NCBI RefSeq assembly: GCF_002356355.1
Contig: NZ_AP018052.1
Location: forward strand, 2,542,001 to 2,606,000
DNA from: Thiohalobacter thiocyanaticus
GTDB taxonomy: Bacteria; Pseudomonadota; Gammaproteobacteria; Thiohalobacterales; Thiohalobacteraceae
Length of the DNA stretch: 64,000 bases
Direction: 5' to 3'
Position numbers and translations under genes: made by a program. The notes under the pieces are model-generated. The model was not told where the DNA came from. It saw nothing but the letters and a program-made list of their open reading frames with translations, and made no database searches. This document shows, in pieces, positions 6,463 through 18,230 of this stretch (positions are counted from its first letter, which is position 1; the number at the start of each line of letters is the position of its first letter).

Positions 6463-6487
6463 CTCTGAACAAGCGGGCTCGTGATTG

Positions 6488-9067
6488 ATGCCCCCGGAAC
6501 AAACGGACGTCTGGATGCAGTACAATCAATATACAATAAAAACTGCATGGAACAGGGCCAGGAAAACGCTGGCGGCCAGGGAAGACAGCGAACACGAACA
6601 GGCCCTCATCCGCCTCGCCATCGGCGGCATCATCTTCCTCTATTTCATCTCGCCGATGCCATTGCTCTGGGACGAGCATGAATCAAATCTTCTCTTCCCC
6701 AGACTGATCAGCGGCAGCTTCCTCCTGGTATCGCTGGGCATCATTGCCGCCATCCTGATAAGACCCGCGAAATCCACCGCCAGACGCCTGCTGGGCATGG
6801 TCGTCGATCTCGCCACCCTCTCCCTGGTTATGGCCCTGACGGGAGGCTACGGAACACCGCTGTTCGCCATCTATCTGTGGGTGATCGTCGGCAACGGCTT
6901 CCGTTACGGCGAGCGCTATGTGGACATCTCGATGGCACTGAGCCTTGTCGGCTTCTCCGCGGTTCTGCTGTTGAGCGAGTATTGGCAGCAGCACCTGGAC
7001 ATCGGCGTCAGCCTGCTGTTGCTGCTCATCATGCTGCCGCTCTACATCAAGGTACTGCTGCGCAAACTCTACGAGGCGATTCAGAAGGCCAACCAGGCCA
7101 ACGAGGCGAAATCGCGCTTCCTGGCCAATATGAGCCACGAACTCCGCACCCCGCTCAACGGGGTTATCGGGATGAGCGAATTGCTGCAGGATACGCACCT
7201 GGATGACGAGCAGCGCGACCTGGTCAAGACGGTCCACCTCTCGGCAAGGACGCTGCTCGGCCTGATCAACAATGTTCTCGACCTCACCAGGATCGAGGCA
7301 GGCAAGACCAGCATAGAGAAGAACCGCTTCGATCTGCACTCGCTGGTAAACAGCACGGTGCGACTGCTCGAGGTACAGGGCAAACGCAAGGAACTGCTTG
7401 TCTCCGCCCATATCGACCCGCAGATTCCGTTCATGCTCGAGGGAGATGAACTTCACCTCAGGCAGGTACTGGTGAACCTGCTCGGCAACGCCATCAAATT
7501 CACCGATCACGGATCCGTAACGCTGCGCGTCCTGCCGGCGGGCGGAACCAGCTTCAAACCCCGCATACGTTTCGAAATCGAAGATACCGGGATCGGTATT
7601 GCGGAGGACAAACTCGACCACATCTTCGAGAATTTCAGCCAGGCCGATCACTCCGTCACACGACAGTATGGCGGCTCGGGACTGGGAACAACGATCGCCA
7701 AGCAGTTGGTGGAACTCATGGAGGGCACCATCGGCGTCCGGAGCACGCCGGGAGAGGGCTCCACCTTCTGGTTTGAAGTTCCGATGACACTACTGCGCGA
7801 TGAGGTGGAAAGCGACAACGGCAGGCTGGAGTCAATGCGTATCCTGCTGCTCGCCAGCGAGAAGCTGGCTGCGGCAATCCGCCCTGCCCTGCGCGGCTGG
7901 GGGGTCGAGTTCGATTGGGCGACCACCCCTGCGCATGCGCTTTCGCTGATGCTGGAGGCAAGCGAGAGCGAATGCGCCTACGACGTGGCGCTGCTCGACC
8001 AGACCGCACTCAATATGGAGCCGGACCTGTTCGCCAGAGTCATTCGCAGCGACGACTCCATTATGGAGATCGCACTGATCCTCCTTGTGGACAGAGAGCT
8101 CGATCGTGTCGGCATGCACAGGCTTGAATGCGACTATTCCTCCGTCCTGTCGCAGCCGCCGGAGAAAACCTTTCTGTTCAACGCCATCCATGCCGCACGC
8201 AGCGAAGTGCAGCTGGATGAAAACGTCGTCACTCTATCCGACTACCACCGCCAGAACAGCAGCGTCTCCGAACTCAATATCCTCGTTGCCGAAGACAACG
8301 ACATCAACCAGAAGGTTATCAACGGCATCCTCAAGCGCGCGGGACACCATGTCGACATCGTGGACGATGGCGAGAAAGCGCTGGATGCACTAACCGACGG
8401 CCGCCGACACTACGATCTTGCAATCCTCGACATGAACATGCCGCATAGCAGTGGCATCGAAGTGCTGAAGGCATTCCGATTCTACGATACTTCGGGTTCG
8501 GTACCGGTGATCATGGTCACCGCCGATGCCACGCTGGAGACAATGAACAGCTGCCTGGATGCCGGCGCACACGCCTATATCACCAAGCCGATCGACGCCC
8601 ACAATCTTCTGGAGACGATTGCCGGACTGGTCAGGGGCGGTGAGGCAACCACAGGACGCACAGCGGACACTGAACGGCAAGGCAGGACCAGCAGCCTGAC
8701 AAAGAACATCGTTCTCGACCAGGAAGCACTGAACCGTCTCGCCAATCTGGGTTCTGGAATCGACTTCGTGGCAGAACTTATCGATGGCTTCTGCGACGAC
8801 AGTCGCGCACTGCTGCGCCGGGCGGAGCAGGCGATCGAGGAACAGGACTACCTTGATTTTCGCGAGGCGGTACACGCGCTCAAGGGTAGCGCGGTCGAAC
8901 TCGGCGCCATAGAATTCGTGCAGCTCTGCGAAAAGACCGAAACGATCAAGCCCTATGAAATGTCGGGCGCCGCCCCCGCGAACAGCATGAGGCAGCTGCG
9001 CCTCGCCCATGGACACCTGCTCGAGACAATGCAGGGATATCTTACTCAACAACGCGAAATGCGTTGA
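6488..9067 (+). CDS. rpfC: RpfC-like hybrid sensor histidine kinase (DSF receptor)
   Basis: 859-residue inner-membrane hybrid kinase. After a short N terminus there are about five membrane segments (for example [44 protein letters not shown]) with very short loops and no periplasmic sensor domain, as in Xanthomonas RpfC. Then follow the dimerisation domain with [10 protein letters not shown] (phospho-His at 217), an ATPase domain ([25 protein letters not shown]), a receiver ([22 protein letters not shown]) and a C-terminal Hpt domain ([12 protein letters not shown]). The region between kinase and receiver looks like a degenerate receiver. The gene follows rpfG by 25 bases and the pair probably forms one transcript. 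The ATG follows a TTG codon directly; a further in-frame ATG nine codons on is possible. Confidence 0.9.
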
Positions 9068-9123
9068 AACCACCCCATTTTGCGGAATGGAGTGGCCCCA
9101 GAAAACCCCGTGCCGCAAGTCTC

Positions 9124-9987
9124 CTACTTGGCGTTCTGCCGACTGACAAGACGCTCCATCATACGCAGATCACGCTTCCCCAGGCGCAGCGCTGCTTCGA
9201 CCCAGACCGTGGTGATAGCGAGAAGCTCCCTGTAATCCAGGGTATTGCAGATATCCCTGACCTCACGCATGGCACGATATCCGTTGGCAGCCCTGTCGGC
9301 ACGCTTGATGTACTCGAGCACGGCCAACTCACCCTCACCCTTCTCAGCGAGGATATCCACCACCCCCATCTCATACAGTTCCTCGGCAGTGTAGAGTTGC
9401 CCGCTCAGAATCATCTGTTCGGCCCGCCCGGTACCGATTCTCCGCGACAGCAGGCTGTAGGCACCCATCCCCGGGAACAGATTGAACAGGATCTCAGGCA
9501 GTCCCATCCGGGTGCCGCGCTCCGCAATGAGCACGTTGCTCGACAGTGCCGCCTCGAATCCGCCGCCCAGCGCATCGCCCTGCACCAGCGATATCGTGGT
9601 CAGGTCGCGCTCCAGATGGACAATATTCTGGTAGAGAACATTGATGCATGCCTTGGCATAATCGAGCAGGCCATCATGATCACCGGCGGCGATCAGGGAA
9701 CGGAACAGATTGAGATCACCGCCGAGATTGAAGACACCATCGACGTCGGAAGCAAGCACCAGATAACGGTAGTCACGCCCTCCCTCGCTATCCTGCTCCT
9801 GGCGGACGCAGGTGAACCACTGATCGATGTCCTGCAGCAACTCGGGATTGAAGCAGGGACGCGGTGCTGCATGCATAAAGTACCAGCCGACCCTGTACTT
9901 CTCCTCGTAGTGGGTTGTGAGGTGGCGGTAAGGGGTATTCTCGGAAATCTGAAGCGCTGAAACACGATCACTGGCCAGACTGTACAT
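9124..9987 (-). CDS. rpfF: RpfF-like DSF synthase (crotonase fold)
   Basis: 287 residues, close to the 289 of Xanthomonas RpfF. This bifunctional crotonase-fold enzyme makes cis-2-unsaturated fatty-acid signals (DSF family) from hydroxyacyl-ACP by dehydration and thioester cleavage. Both catalytic glutamates are in the expected places: Glu145 in GDALGGGFEAALSS and Glu165 in MGLPEILFNLFPGMGAYS (equivalents of Glu141 and Glu161). The start ATG has CAGGAGAG seven bases upstream; the frame extends 15 codons further but without a ribosome site. The gene converges tail-to-tail with rpfC over 56 bases, the same arrangement as rpfF against rpfGHC in Xanthomonas. No rpfB-like acyl-CoA ligase lies directly beside it. 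Confidence 0.93.
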   Translation of the reverse strand: MYSLASDRVSALQISENTPYRHLTTHYEEKYRVGWYFMHAAPRPCFNPELLQDIDQWFTCVRQEQDSEGGRDYRYLVLASDVDGVFNLGGDLNLFRSLIAAGDHDGLLDYAKACINVLYQNIVHLERDLTTISLVQGDALGGGFEAALSSNVLIAERGTRMGLPEILFNLFPGMGAYSLLSRRIGTGRAEQMILSGQLYTAEELYEMGVVDILAEKGEGELAVLEYIKRADRAANGYRAMREVRDICNTLDYRELLAITTVWVEAALRLGKRDLRMMERLVSRQNAK

Positions 9988-10257
9988 TGGTCTCTCCTGG
10001 GTAACGGTTGATAGTCTACGCAAATGCAACATCCCCTTGCGTATATATCAATGCCGGTGGAAATCCACAAATCCATCTGATCGGAAGCCGCAACCCTGCT
10101 GTAATAACCACTACGGCATTGATTAATAAATATTACACACATCAACAAATTACCCAATCGCACCCAGTTTGACCAGCGCTATAAACCTCACATGCTCCAT
10201 TCTTATGACGGGCGCGTGATTCATGCTAAGCTGCGCGTATGATATGCGGGGCGCTAC

Positions 10258-11628
10258 ATGCGTTCGTTGTTGAGAGTCGTCAGCAGGAGACCTCCGCTGC
10301 CGCCCTCCCAAGGACCCAGGTCACTGAGCAGGCTCAAAGTGCACGGACTCCTGGAAAGCCGCGACTATGCGGAACTTCACAGCATCCTCAACTACCTCGG
10401 CATCGCCGCGTTCGTGATCGACGTTGAGGGCGACGACGTCTATCGTCTTGCCGCCATCAATGAACGCCATGAGCAGTTGACCGGGATGCGGCACGCCGAC
10501 TGCGCGGGGCGGAGGATCGATGAGATCCTCTCTTTGGAGGTAGCCGAGCAGGTCAAGATCAACTATCGTCGCTGCGTACACCAACGCGCCCCCATTGACT
10601 ACGACGAGAGCCTGGAGCTGCCAAACGGCACCAGTTACTGGCGCACCAACCTGGTACCCTATATCGATGCCTCGGGCCGGGTATTCCGCCTGCTGGGCAC
10701 GTCCTTTGAAATCAGTCGCACCGTTCATCTGGAACAGAAAGCCCGCTACCAATCCAGCCTTCTGGATGCCTATCTGGAAGAGTCGCCCGATGGCATCCTG
10801 GTGGTAGATGCCGACAATCACATCAAAAACTGGAACCGGCGCTTTCTGGAAATCTGGAATATCCCGGCCGACGTCATGGATGCCCGTGATGGCGCCCGGG
10901 CACTGGAAATTGTCCGGGCGCAATTGCGGGATCCCGATGAATTCGTCGACCGGATCAGGGAGTTGTACCAGCGCCTGGATCAGGAGGAGAAGGAGCACCG
11001 GATCAGGATGCGCGACGGCCGCATCCTCGAGCGCTATTCCCGGGGTCTCAGGGATCGCGAAGGGACCTGGTGGGGACGGATCTGGTTCTACCGTGACATC
11101 ACCGAGCAGGAACGAATCACGGAGAAACTGGTGCAGCTGTCCCGCACCGATATGCTGACGGATATCGCCAACCGGCGGGCATTCATGGACACACTGGCCG
11201 AGGAATACCAGCGCGCCCGCCGCTACGGGCACCCGTTCACAGTGCTCATGATCGATCTTGATCACTTCAAGGCCGTCAATGACCGCTACGGCCACGAGGG
11301 CGGCGACGCGGCCCTGAAGGCCTTCAGTCAGACGATCAAACCCATGCTGCGCCACACCGATCAGTTCGCACGCATGGGCGGGGAGGAATTCGCCCTCCTG
11401 CTTCCCGAAAGCGGCCTGGATGAGGCAATGCAACTCGCCGAACGCATTGGCCAGGCAGTCGCCGCAATCGAGGTGAACTGTCGACGCGGTTCCTTCGGGA
11501 TAACCGCCAGCATCGGCGTCAGCGCACTGCAGCCGCAGGATGCCGACCCCGAGGAGCCCCTCGGCCGTGCCGACAGGGCGCTCTATACCGCAAAGGAGGC
11601 GGGCAGGAACCGGGTGGCCTGCAACTGA
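10258..11628 (+). CDS. PAS-PAS-GGDEF diguanylate cyclase
   Basis: 456-residue cytoplasmic protein. Two PAS-like domains (about residues 40-160 and 165-285; the second contains SPDGILVVDADNHIKNWNRRF and ends in FYRDITEQERI) precede a GGDEF domain. The active-site loop GGEEF is at 374-378 and the inhibitory RxxD site (RHTD, 365-368) is intact. SRTDMLTDIANRRAF and DLDHFKAVNDRYGHEGGD are the usual substrate-binding blocks. It therefore should make c-di-GMP and be feedback-inhibited. It is divergent from rpfF across a 270-base AT-rich gap, so the two may share a control region. The signal sensed by the PAS domains cannot be told. Confidence 0.9.
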   Translation: MRSLLRVVSRRPPLPPSQGPRSLSRLKVHGLLESRDYAELHSILNYLGIAAFVIDVEGDDVYRLAAINERHEQLTGMRHADCAGRRIDEILSLEVAEQVKINYRRCVHQRAPIDYDESLELPNGTSYWRTNLVPYIDASGRVFRLLGTSFEISRTVHLEQKARYQSSLLDAYLEESPDGILVVDADNHIKNWNRRFLEIWNIPADVMDARDGARALEIVRAQLRDPDEFVDRIRELYQRLDQEEKEHRIRMRDGRILERYSRGLRDREGTWWGRIWFYRDITEQERITEKLVQLSRTDMLTDIANRRAFMDTLAEEYQRARRYGHPFTVLMIDLDHFKAVNDRYGHEGGDAALKAFSQTIKPMLRHTDQFARMGGEEFALLLPESGLDEAMQLAERIGQAVAAIEVNCRRGSFGITASIGVSALQPQDADPEEPLGRADRALYTAKEAGRNRVACN

Positions 11629-11692: not shown

Positions 11693-13654
11693 TCAGCCGC
11701 GCAGGGGATGCGGGGACACCACATTGGGACAGACCGCCCGCACCTCGTCATACAGGGCGGCCGGCGCCCGGACATAGCGTTGGGAGTGATGAAACGGGAT
11801 CAGCGTCCCGACACCGGCGGCGGCTGCGATCTCGCCACAGGCCCGGGCAGTCAGATGGCCGGTGCGCTCGGCCTGGCCCGCCTCCGTCTCGCGAAAGACC
11901 GCCTCGCAGAAAAAGGTATGGGCACCCCGGGCCAGGCGGATCAGTCGTTCGCGATTGGCCGGGTTGTCGGCGAGATCGGTGGCATAGACCAGAGTCTGCC
12001 CCGGCTGGGACAGCAGCAGACGCTCAGCCAGTTCCCCGGCCCGGACGCTGCGGCCAGCGGGCAGCGTGATCGCCGCATCGACCGCGCCCTCGCCGATCCG
12101 GCGCTTGAGGTCGGTCAGCCAGGGCCCCGGCTCGACGCCCAGGGCCAGCAGGCGATCCTTGCGCACCTGCAGGAGCTGCGACGTCTCGTAGGCATAGGCC
12201 AGCACCGGGATACCGTGATCCAGTTTCACGGCCCGGATCCGGAACCCCGACTCGGTGTGCAGGACCCCGTCGTGGACGCACTGCTCGTCCAGTTCCTCCA
12301 CCCGCTCCCGCCCGACCTGCAGACGAAAGCGGCGCAGACGGCTGTCGTCGTGCAGTTCATGGACCTCGAAGTGCGGGCCGCGCTCGCCGATCCGGTCCCA
12401 GCGGATGCCCTGGATCATGCCCTGGATATGCTGGTGCAAGCCAGGAGGACCATACAGGCGGCAGACCGTGGCCACGCCGACACGGGACCGCAGCAGCCGC
12501 AGGAAGCCCATGATGTGATCGGCATGGGCGTGGCTGATGAATACGTCCGTCACCTGATGCACCACCCGCACCGGCAGACGTTCGGATTCCCCCAGATCGA
12601 ACAGCAGGCTGCGGCGTTGATGGCGCAGCCGCAGGTGCAGCAGCGGGTCGCCGAAGATCCCGTTGACCAGCATGGCGGTCCCTGTCCCCAGGGTCGCCAC
12701 CGGTCGCGGCCCGCCGTCGTCGGGCCCGGCGCTGCGGGTGAGCATGTCCGGCGGCGGCCGGTACCAGGCTACGTGCGCGGCGGCGGGTGCAGCCGTCTCC
12801 AGTTCGCCGCGGGCATTGCGCGCGGCGTCGCGGATAACCAGGGCAGCCGCCGCCCCTGACGTCATGGCCAGCTGGGCACGCAACTGCCCGTCCTCGCAGC
12901 CGATGACCTCGCCCAGGGCCAGGGTCCGTTGCGCGGCATCCACCAGGGCCAGCTGTCGGCCACGCCAGGCGGCCGCCGCCCCGGCCGGCGGCGGCGTACC
13001 CACCACCGGCAGCCGCTCCAGTTCGAGGCTGACCTCCCCGGCCGCGGCCAGATACGCCTCCCACTGCCGCGTCCGGTTGCGGGCGCGCATGCGCCGCCCC
13101 GGCCGACGTGCCGAGGCCACGGCGGGCACCACCCGGGGTTGGCAGCCGCTGGCCGCCAACTCCTCGCGCAGCGGCGGGGAACTGACATGATGGGTCACGC
13201 ACAATGCGACCTCGGCCGCGGTCACTTCAAGCAACCCAAGCAGCAGTTCCGCCCCGGCCACCCCACGCACCACGCCGGGGGCATCGATCAGCAGGGTACC
13301 CCCTGTGTCCCGCGCGAGCAGCCGCCCTACGGCAGCGAGCAGCGGCAGGCGGAAACGGCCGGCATCCAGGCTGCATAACGCCTCCATGGCAACCGGCTGC
13401 CAGCCAGTCCCGCACCACTGGCCAAGAGCGACGGCACCGGGCACCCCGAAGGCGGGGCTGCCCGGATCGGCACCGAGGCAGACGCAGTCACGTCCACGCG
13501 CCGCCAGCGCGGCTGCCAGACCCGCGGCCAGGGTGGATTTCCCGCTACCGGGTTCGCCGTACAGCAACACCCGGCGATCGGCCTTCGCCAGCACAGCCTC
13601 CAGCACCGCCTCCGCCGAAGGGGGCAGCAGGGGAATGGCAGTGGCTGAGGTCAT
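11693..13654 (-). CDS. Fusion of Clp1/Grc3-like P-loop domain with RNase Z-like metallo-beta-lactamase domain
   Basis: 653 residues. Residues 1 to about 300 resemble Clp1/Nol9/Grc3 polynucleotide kinases: Walker A GEPGSGKST at 33-41, then LGADPGSPAFGVPGAVALG (the family's DxDPGQ-like block, Asp63), LLIDAPG as Walker B-like strand, and a C-terminal LALGEVIGCEDGQL resembling the Clp1 beta domain. Residues about 335-653 are an RNase Z-type MBL fold: LGTGTAM, LLFDLGES, the metal motif HAHADH at 375-380, YATDLADN, and GHLTARACGEIA with PFHHSQRY, the tRNase Z C-terminal signature. Both halves look complete. A combined 5'-end kinase and 3'-end nuclease role on RNA, probably tRNA, is inference. A THUMP RNA-binding gene lies 145 bases upstream on the same strand. 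The ATG used here gives a start just before the fold; the frame is open 31 codons further. Confidence 0.8.
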   Translation of the reverse strand: MTSATAIPLLPPSAEAVLEAVLAKADRRVLLYGEPGSGKSTLAAGLAAALAARGRDCVCLGADPGSPAFGVPGAVALGQWCGTGWQPVAMEALCSLDAGRFRLPLLAAVGRLLARDTGGTLLIDAPGVVRGVAGAELLLGLLEVTAAEVALCVTHHVSSPPLREELAASGCQPRVVPAVASARRPGRRMRARNRTRQWEAYLAAAGEVSLELERLPVVGTPPPAGAAAAWRGRQLALVDAAQRTLALGEVIGCEDGQLRAQLAMTSGAAAALVIRDAARNARGELETAAPAAAHVAWYRPPPDMLTRSAGPDDGGPRPVATLGTGTAMLVNGIFGDPLLHLRLRHQRRSLLFDLGESERLPVRVVHQVTDVFISHAHADHIMGFLRLLRSRVGVATVCRLYGPPGLHQHIQGMIQGIRWDRIGERGPHFEVHELHDDSRLRRFRLQVGRERVEELDEQCVHDGVLHTESGFRIRAVKLDHGIPVLAYAYETSQLLQVRKDRLLALGVEPGPWLTDLKRRIGEGAVDAAITLPAGRSVRAGELAERLLLSQPGQTLVYATDLADNPANRERLIRLARGAHTFFCEAVFRETEAGQAERTGHLTARACGEIAAAAGVGTLIPFHHSQRYVRAPAALYDEVRAVCPNVVSPHPLRG

Positions 13655-13799
13655 AGGTTCAGATCCCGACCGGCAGCGGACCGATCTTGCTCCTGACTCA
13701 AGTGTACCGGACGATCCGTATGCTGTGACCGGAACAGACCCGGTCATGATGCAGATCCCCCCCGCTGCATTGTGGTTGGCGCCGGTACGCGGACCCGGC

Positions 13800-14336
13800 T
13801 CAGTCGAGTTTCAGCAGCGGATAACGCTGACGATCGGTACGGGACCAGAGGGACAAACCGGCCTGCTGGCCCAGCGTCTCGACGGCCAGGATGTAATCCG
13901 GATCCTCGAAGTCGATCTGTGTCTGCGCCTCGGAGGACGTATTCATAAGGATGTAGTGATCGAGTTGCTGCTCCTGCTCCTGACTCGAAAGCCGTCCCTT
14001 GAAGCCCCGGCGGTGCATGCGGACATGAAAACGCCTGCCTCCCAGTTCGCCAAGCCAGGGCACGATCGCCCGACGGCAGCCTTCTTCGAACCCCTCGACC
14101 GCCTGAAAGGTGAACCGGACAGTCACCGGCATCACCCGGGCCAGCGCCGAGCGCAAGCCCGGGTGCGACTCAAGATGGTCTGCCAGGCTGCGTATAAATC
14201 CTTGTATATCTGGGACCTGCATGAGCAGAACATTGTAGTAGTCAGTCTTGTAGACAGTGCCGAACCTGCTCAGCGCCTGGCGTACCAGGGTGTAAGTTCC
14301 ATCCTGGACGGTAATAACGACATTCCAGTCCTGCAT
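13800..14336 (-). CDS. Stand-alone THUMP domain protein
   Basis: 178 residues, essentially one THUMP domain. Diagnostic blocks are DWNVVITVQDG at the N terminus, ARVMPVTVRFTFQ in the middle, the RRGFKGRLSSQEQEQQLDHYI stretch (rRGfKg followed by the conserved E-x-LD), and FEDPDYILAVETLGQQAGLSLW at the end. THUMP domains bind the 3' acceptor end of tRNA; stand-alone forms act as adaptors for tRNA acetylation in eukaryotes (Tan1/THUMPD1), whereas most bacterial ones are fused to methylase or thiouridine domains. No enzyme domain is attached here. The downstream co-directional gene encodes the P-loop-RNase Z fusion, so a joint role in tRNA end processing is suggested. Confidence 0.78.
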   Translation of the reverse strand: MQDWNVVITVQDGTYTLVRQALSRFGTVYKTDYYNVLLMQVPDIQGFIRSLADHLESHPGLRSALARVMPVTVRFTFQAVEGFEEGCRRAIVPWLGELGGRRFHVRMHRRGFKGRLSSQEQEQQLDHYILMNTSSEAQTQIDFEDPDYILAVETLGQQAGLSLWSRTDRQRYPLLKLD

Positions 14337-18091: not shown

Positions 18092-18149
18092 CTCTCTCCG
18101 CCATATAAAAAGGGCCCCGGTTGGGGCCCTTTTTATATGGCGGAGAGAG
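18092..18149. repeat. 27-bp perfect inverted repeat overlapping the tRNA-Ser 3' end; acts as terminator
   Basis: Left arm 18092-18118 and right arm 18123-18149 are exact reverse complements separated by GGTT. The core GGGGCCC followed by TTTTTATATGG is a strong terminator for the minus-strand tRNA. The arms extend beyond the core: the last 12 bases of the right arm are the tRNA 3' end (through CCA), and the left arm contains its reverse complement. The transcript could therefore pair its trailer with the tRNA 3' strand of the acceptor stem. Confidence 0.9.
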
Positions 18150-18230
18150 AGGGATTCGAACCCTCGATGGAGCTTTTAACCCCATACTCCCTTAGCAGGG
18201 GAGCGCCTTCAGCCGCTCGGCCATCTCTCC
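18138..18230 (-). tRNA. tRNA-Ser(GCT)
   Basis: Class II tRNA of 93 bases with encoded CCA. The acceptor stem pairs GGAGAGA with TCTCTCC; the anticodon loop CTGCTAAG gives GCT; there is a long variable arm (GGGAGTATGGGGTTAAAAGC region) and T arm GGTTCGAATCC. It lies downstream of csrA on the same strand, the usual gammaproteobacterial position. Its 3' terminus is part of a perfect inverted repeat described separately. Confidence 0.95.

Follow-up and report, generated by a model that had tools for sequence, protein, structure and literature searches.

A Clp1-type kinase joined to a divergent RNase Z defines a conserved proteobacterial protein family genomically associated with RtcA, RtcB, archease, and a THUMP protein

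A single gene in the 64,000-nt window of the Thiohalobacter thiocyanaticus genome analyzed here encodes a predicted Clp1-type polynucleotide kinase followed by an RNase Z-like domain. By its sequence relatives, this kinase-RNase Z fusion is an old, conserved proteobacterial family, and it is genomically associated with RtcA, RtcB, archease, and a THUMP-domain protein, direct adjacency being observed in a minority of genomes. The fusion is probably an RNA end-processing enzyme of Rtc-type RNA repair, acting most likely on broken tRNA or tRNA-like RNA. The substrates and logic of this repair in bacteria are still debated, and the fusion offers a concrete handle on how bacteria decide between rejoining and discarding broken RNA.

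Gene Structure and Genomic Context of the Fusion

The fusion gene (Table 1) is a frame of 653 codons that opens with the ATG at 13654 on the minus strand. An earlier reading made from the letters alone (the sequence-only reading) had placed it exactly and left the strand unstated; every motif that it quoted is present in the sequence. A second in-frame ATG, preceded by a G-rich stretch, lies upstream at 13747 and would give a protein of 684 aa. In the alignment, orthologues begin close to residues 1-9 of the 653-aa form, so the shorter start is preferred, if not proven. Both domains lie in one open frame and each is intact according to its Pfam profile match.

Table 1: Features of the window and arrangements at related loci (window coordinates unless a locus is named; motif positions are residue numbers).
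Feature	Position	Strand	Remarks
Clp1-type kinase/RNase Z fusion gene	11693..13654	-	653 aa + stop
Predicted Clp1-type polynucleotide kinase half, residues 9-283	12806..13630	-	CLP1_P, fold, invariant residues
RNase Z half, residues 325-648	11711..12682	-	NF002558, fold, invariant residues
Kinase-half motifs			Walker A GEPGSGKST; DPG 63-65; clasp-like DAPG 124-127; lid RxxxRTxxW 190-198
RNase Z-half motifs			HAHADH 375-380; H480; flexible-arm GP motif 507-517; D560; GHLTA 599-603; FHHSQRY 621-627
THUMP-domain protein	13800..14336	-	178 aa; immediately upstream of the fusion, same strand
Hybrid sensor kinase	6485..9067	+	receiver and Hpt parts
Crotonase-family protein	9124..10032	-	MHxxPRPCF-like start; Pfam ECH_1 confirmed
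PAS-PAS-GGDEF protein	10258..11628	+	convergent with the fusion gene
tRNA-Ser genes, GGA and GCT anticodons	15314..15404 and 18138..18230	-	upstream of the THUMP-fusion pair, same strand
L031			rtcA-THUMP-fusion, one strand
L034			rtcA-fusion, 35-nt gap
L045			fusion-rtcA, 60-nt gap
L063			rtcA and fusion divergent
L032			rtcA ~0.4 kb upstream of fusion
L050, L059			archease-rtcB upstream of fusion
L094 (Photobacterium proteolyticum)	8701..9894		RtcB-family gene of another type directly upstream of fusion
L163			archease-rtcB, then fragment matching fusion kinase residues 158-236 at contig end
L162			THUMP-rtcA-archease-rtcB and fusion within 16 kb

The hybrid sensor kinase and crotonase-family genes beside the fusion resemble an RpfC/RpfF pair of quorum sensing. 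A terminator-like hairpin follows the first of the two tRNA-Ser genes.

The N-Terminal Half Belongs to the Clp1/Grc3/Nol9 Kinase Family

The Pfam profile CLP1_P scored 50.3 bits on the fusion protein (cut-off 26.6), and CLP1_P together with a lactamase domain was matched in all 73 aligned full-length fusions. When the kinase profile was compared with PDB sequences, most matches were generic AAA P-loops (midasin, p97), Grc3 (2.4e-8) and Clp1 (1.1e-6) being matched as well; because these generic P-loops dominate the search, fold comparison was used to assign the half. An AlphaFold2 model built from the 73 aligned fusions had a mean pLDDT of 91.7 and a pTM of 0.70, the relative placing of the halves being less sure, and the Z scores of both halves in structure comparisons were far above the values of unrelated folds. 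Residues 9-283 aligned with human CLP1 in the TSEN complex (8hmy_E; Z 27.2, rmsd 2.8, 262 residues) and with C. elegans Clp1 (Z 26.9), and also resembled Grc3 of Las1-Grc3 complexes (8puw, Z 22.6). Profile and predicted fold thus place the N-terminal half in the Clp1/Grc3/Nol9 polynucleotide kinase family, in agreement with the Clp1-type assignment made earlier from motifs.

The likely catalytic residues, whose roles are given here from motif order and not from residue superposition, are invariant in 73/73 fusions: K39 of Walker A, D63 of the DPG motif, D124 of the clasp-like DxPG, and R194 and W198 of the lid.

The C-Terminal Half Is a Divergent RNase Z

On the same protein, the Pfam profile Lactamase_B_2 scored 47.1 bits (cut-off 27). 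NF002558 (PRK02126, “ribonuclease Z”) covered positions 7-336 of its 345 and reached 282.6 bits against a cut-off of 315, and TIGR02651, the canonical RNase Z equivalog, gave 110.4 bits, below its cut-off of 292.95. The first six metal ligands (H375, H377, D379, H380, H480, and D560) are invariant in all 73 fusions; wherever the alignment extends to H600 and H622 (72/72 rows), both are conserved, and the one further row comes from a draft contig with a frameshift. Of the two outcomes that would have spoken against the earlier reading, neither was seen: the N-terminal half did match Clp1, and the Walker lysine and these ligands were not substituted across orthologues. In the structure comparison, residues 325-648 matched Bacillus subtilis RNase Z bound to pre-tRNA (4gcw_A) with Z 27.8 and rmsd 2.4, 280 residues being aligned to this tRNA-bound form versus 243 to 1y44_A.

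The flexible arm (exosite) with its GP motif is present as LGVEPGPWLTDLK, with G510 found in 73/73; its consensus, LGxxPGPWLxxLK, is in place when aligned with canonical RNase Z of the same class. Canonical RNase Z has near its N-terminus a loop, GTSxGxPTxxRN, that contributes to recognition of the tRNA acceptor end with its CCA; LVNGxFGDPxLxL takes its place both in the fusions and in the stand-alone PRK02126-type proteins. Since the canonical acceptor-reading loop is replaced, the RNase Z half likely has an altered substrate, and by sequence it is a member of a divergent RNase Z subfamily. The half had been described as a complete RNase Z: ligands, flexible arm, and fold are indeed kept, but the replaced loop and the missed TIGR02651 cut-off argue against completeness in the canonical sense.

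In a tree of RNase Z halves, a branch with support 87/98 set off the 35 sampled fusions and another (91/84) the 11 stand-alone PRK02126-type proteins, while canonical RNase Z lay apart from both (100/100). As the bootstrap of this tree is not fully settled, a single origin of the fusion is favored rather than proven. Stand-alone PRK02126-type proteins (L010, L012, and L176-L186) do not have the substrate loop of canonical RNase Z, and they co-occur with RtcB and RtcA; annotating them as ordinary ribonuclease Z may mislead. For the fusion, the automatic label “ribonuclease Z” conceals a second domain.

The Fusion Is Conserved across Proteobacteria

The kinase half alone was scanned against ~85,000 species genomes, and the best 80 of 129 relatives were kept. 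Both halves were found at 76 of these best 80 loci (one split by a frameshift). At three of the other four, the contig ends within the kinase half or shortly past it, and the fourth (L085) is truncated; frameshifts in draft contigs were seen at L071 and L043. The sole apparent exception to the fusion is L085:398-1069, in a Methylobacter MAG, where the first 223 kinase-half residues stand alone and are followed by 6.7 kb of contig. Whole-length identity to the T. thiocyanaticus protein was 44-58% for 72 of the 73 aligned fusions. These whole-length orthologues, and the 76/80 loci with both halves, exclude a chance or assembly join; the single chain noticed in the window represents an orthologous, family-wide fusion.

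Hosts belong to the Gammaproteobacteria (Methylobacter, Litchfieldella, Thiodiazotropha, Photobacterium, Nitrococcus, and many MAGs), Betaproteobacteria (Nitrosomonas), Zetaproteobacteria, and Desulfobacterota. CLP1_P occurred in four of 398 independently sampled Pseudomonadota genomes, each time in the fused form, which suggests that Clp1-type kinases of Pseudomonadota occur mainly as this fusion. A phage or plasmid origin was rejected, as viral contigs, plasmids, and phages yielded RNase Z-like matches only and no fusion. A known defense system was rejected as well, PADLOC giving weak P-loop matches only.

Association with RtcA, RtcB, and Archease

Co-occurrence was analyzed in 274 evenly drawn genomes of the class, mostly one or two per family, nine of which carry a complete copy of the fusion. 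The long, archease-associated type of RtcB was present in 8/9 fusion genomes versus 49/265 others (p=1.7e-5) and RtcA in 5/9 versus 18/265 (p=2.7e-4), p-values that, like those below, ignore kinship beyond the even sampling over families. The association is incomplete, with 4/9 fusion genomes lacking RtcA and 1/9 lacking the long RtcB. For the stand-alone PRK02126-type RNase Z, long RtcB was found in 10/13 genomes (p=1.3e-5) and RtcA in 6/13 (p=2e-4). In T. thiocyanaticus itself, archease-rtcB lies at 2.366 Mb and rtcA at 1.489 Mb. The order around the former (L174, 2.363-2.371 Mb) is a pcm-like methyltransferase gene of the protein-isoaspartate type, archease, and rtcB; pcm relatives also occur near the fusion at L026, L054, L059, and L089.

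Physical clustering was observed at several loci (Table 1). RTC was the commonest Pfam family among 108 immediate neighbors of the fusion, though it occurred four times only. Rough binomials put the chance of such adjacency at 2e-7 for the four immediate neighbors and at 1e-5 for six within 10 kb. Among the best 80 loci, rtcA or rtcB was within 10 kb at about nine, and most fusion genes are outside any conserved operon. One universal operon was rejected as the immediate neighbors are diverse. A locus related to that of Photobacterium proteolyticum, in P. alginatilyticum (L098), has no such RtcB-family gene directly upstream of the fusion.

The THUMP Neighbor

The gap between the 178-aa THUMP gene and the fusion is 145 nt, and a terminator scan found no terminator between the two. 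THUMP proteins read the tRNA acceptor end. The Pfam THUMP profile scored 20.5 bits on this neighbor, just under its 20.6 cut-off, and was matched in 6/9 of its orthologues (best E 4e-6); the fold matches at Z 14.2 to 10.1 were all THUMP RNA-modifying enzymes. Relatives were found in 9 of the 274 class genomes, with RtcA in eight of these nine (p=6e-9), and in 4/9 fusion genomes versus 5/265 others (p=6e-5). THUMP and rtcA are side by side in G006, G062, and G094, and the order THUMP-archease-rtcB occurs in G029. At L165, L166, and L164, the 178-aa protein adjoins rtcA or archease-rtcB in genomes where no fusion was found. Because this adjacency holds even there, the THUMP protein appears to accompany Rtc RNA repair in general.

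A Putative Role in Rtc-Type RNA Repair

Clp1-type kinases convert a 5'-OH into a 5'-phosphate that RtcB cannot use, and RtcA produces the cyclic phosphate. RNase Z cleavage gives a 3'-OH and a 5'-phosphate, so the kinase cannot act on its partner's product. The halves would then not work in series at one cut, and the link between them should lie in a common substrate or pathway; it is more likely that they act on two ends of one RNA. The sequence-only reading had envisaged one chain that processes or repairs both ends of a cut RNA. The co-occurrence and adjacency with RtcB, archease, RtcA, and THUMP, which that reading did not have before it, speak for this idea.

RtcB ligates a 5'-OH end to one that carries a 2',3'-cyclic phosphate or a 3'-phosphate (PMC3973293), and the bacterial Clp1 of Thermus scotoductus has RNA kinase activity (PMC6777427). 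In metazoa, phosphorylation by CLP1 takes away the substrate of RtcB, a competition described in a 2026 review, and silencing of CLP1 in insect cells leads to more RTCB ligation (PMC13247085).

We consider the following model, in which the two activities, tRNA as the substrate, and the sequence of steps with what each achieves are inferred, the choice of tRNA drawing on what is known of the RNase Z and THUMP families. A nuclease or stress would break a tRNA so that one side ends in a 2',3'-cyclic phosphate (or 3'-phosphate) and the other in a 5'-OH, ends that RtcA, RtcB, and archease could cyclise and rejoin. The Clp1-type half, with ATP, would phosphorylate the 5'-OH, withdrawing that end from RtcB and restoring the 5'-phosphate of a mature or decay-ready RNA. 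The RNase Z half would hold the same RNA by its flexible arm and trim the 3' side to a 3'-OH, and the neighboring THUMP protein may aid recognition of the acceptor end. The fusion would thereby choose between rejoining and remodelling or discarding; it may divert broken tRNAs from ligation or restore the acceptor end.

Restoration of the acceptor end as the whole function, that is, repair and not diversion, seems possible but rather unlikely to us. The RNase Z half would remove a damaged or wrong 3' end for the CCA-adding enzyme while the kinase restores the 5' phosphate. The adjacency of the 5' and 3' ends on one acceptor stem would explain two activities in one chain, the GP motif of the flexible arm is retained, and the adjacent THUMP gene belongs to a family that reads this end; taken by itself, however, this reading would leave unexplained the link to RtcA and RtcB, enzymes of internal breaks with 3'-phosphate and 5'-OH ends. 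The fusion could also serve as the cell's housekeeping tRNase Z, the kinase being accessory, as its own genome has no second protein that resembles RNase Z over the full length. This is improbable: all own tRNA genes checked (30 loci) encode CCA, so the fusion would be dispensable for ordinary 3' trailer cutting, and the canonical substrate loop is missing from it. RNase Z itself appears dispensable in 238 of the 274 class genomes, since no match was found there at the threshold used, and two genomes (G131 and G245) have a canonical RNase Z along with the sister stand-alone form. The same 30 loci argue that the RNase Z is not there to serve tRNA genes lacking CCA, an explanation that was rejected.

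The match to Grc3 brings to mind rRNA or mRNA processing by a nuclease-kinase machine of the Las1-Grc3 kind. Las1 generates 5'-OH ends that Grc3 phosphorylates next, whereas RNase Z leaves a 5'-phosphate, so the coupling differs; the genomic partners, moreover, are of the RNA-repair and tRNA type, and we regard such a machine as very improbable. There is equally little to recommend a kinase-dead P-loop half that regulates the nuclease in an ATP-dependent manner or offers it a platform for binding RNA. It would fit the best CLP1_P stretch in the T. thiocyanaticus copy, which spans just the Walker A/DPG segment, but one orthologue aligns with CLP1_P over positions 1-187 of 188, and none of the 73 proteins varies at the Walker lysine, the acidic residue, the clasp, or the lid arginine. 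We therefore retain an end-processing role in Rtc-type repair as the preferred explanation.

Going further, we tentatively propose, at somewhat less than even confidence, that Proteobacteria have an unrecorded tRNA repair-or-discard pathway composed of archease-RtcB, RtcA, the THUMP protein, and the Clp1-RNase Z chain, the latter blocking ligation by 5'-OH phosphorylation and 3' trimming. If true, its parts would be ones best known from archaeal and eukaryotic tRNA maturation, and it would parallel the CLP1-RTCB competition proposed for metazoan tRNA splicing.

Comparison with Known Systems

Our literature search returned nothing joining RNase Z with Clp1, or either with THUMP; an earlier mention in Burroughs and Aravind 2016 (RNA repair) is possible. 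The main text of the 2019 Clp1 survey mentions no RNase Z or lactamase domain (PMC6777427). Both domain families are known already; no paper in the literature searched described the conserved chain, its spread, its sister relation to PRK02126, or its ties with RtcB, RtcA, archease, and THUMP.

The kinase half shares with Thermus scotoductus Ts-Clp1 and Pyrococcus Clp1 a CLP1_P P-loop with Walker A, DPG, clasp, and lid, the Clp1 fold, and an unmatched eukaryotic N-terminal Clp1 domain, but these described proteins are stand-alone, whereas the fusion adds an RNase Z after the kinase. With B. subtilis RNase Z and Escherichia coli RNase BN/ZiPD, the C-terminal half has in common HxHxDH, the other metal ligands, the GP flexible arm, and the fold; it differs by the LVNGxFGDPxLxL loop, the low TIGR02651 score, and the attached kinase domain. 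Closest is the stand-alone NF002558/PRK02126 subfamily, a probable sister clade of the fused RNase Z half with the same replaced loop and the same tracking of RtcB and RtcA, but without the kinase. The RtcA/RtcB/archease repair and tRNA-ligase operons encode RNA-end enzymes found in the same genomes as the fusion, and sometimes in the same operon, although those described have neither a kinase-nuclease fusion nor a THUMP protein (PMC7790460, PMC9650030, PMC3973293). Finally, Las1-Grc3 and TSEN-CLP1 likewise pair a Clp1-family kinase with an RNA endonuclease, but they are eukaryotic two- or multi-chain complexes whose unrelated nucleases make 5'-OH ends.
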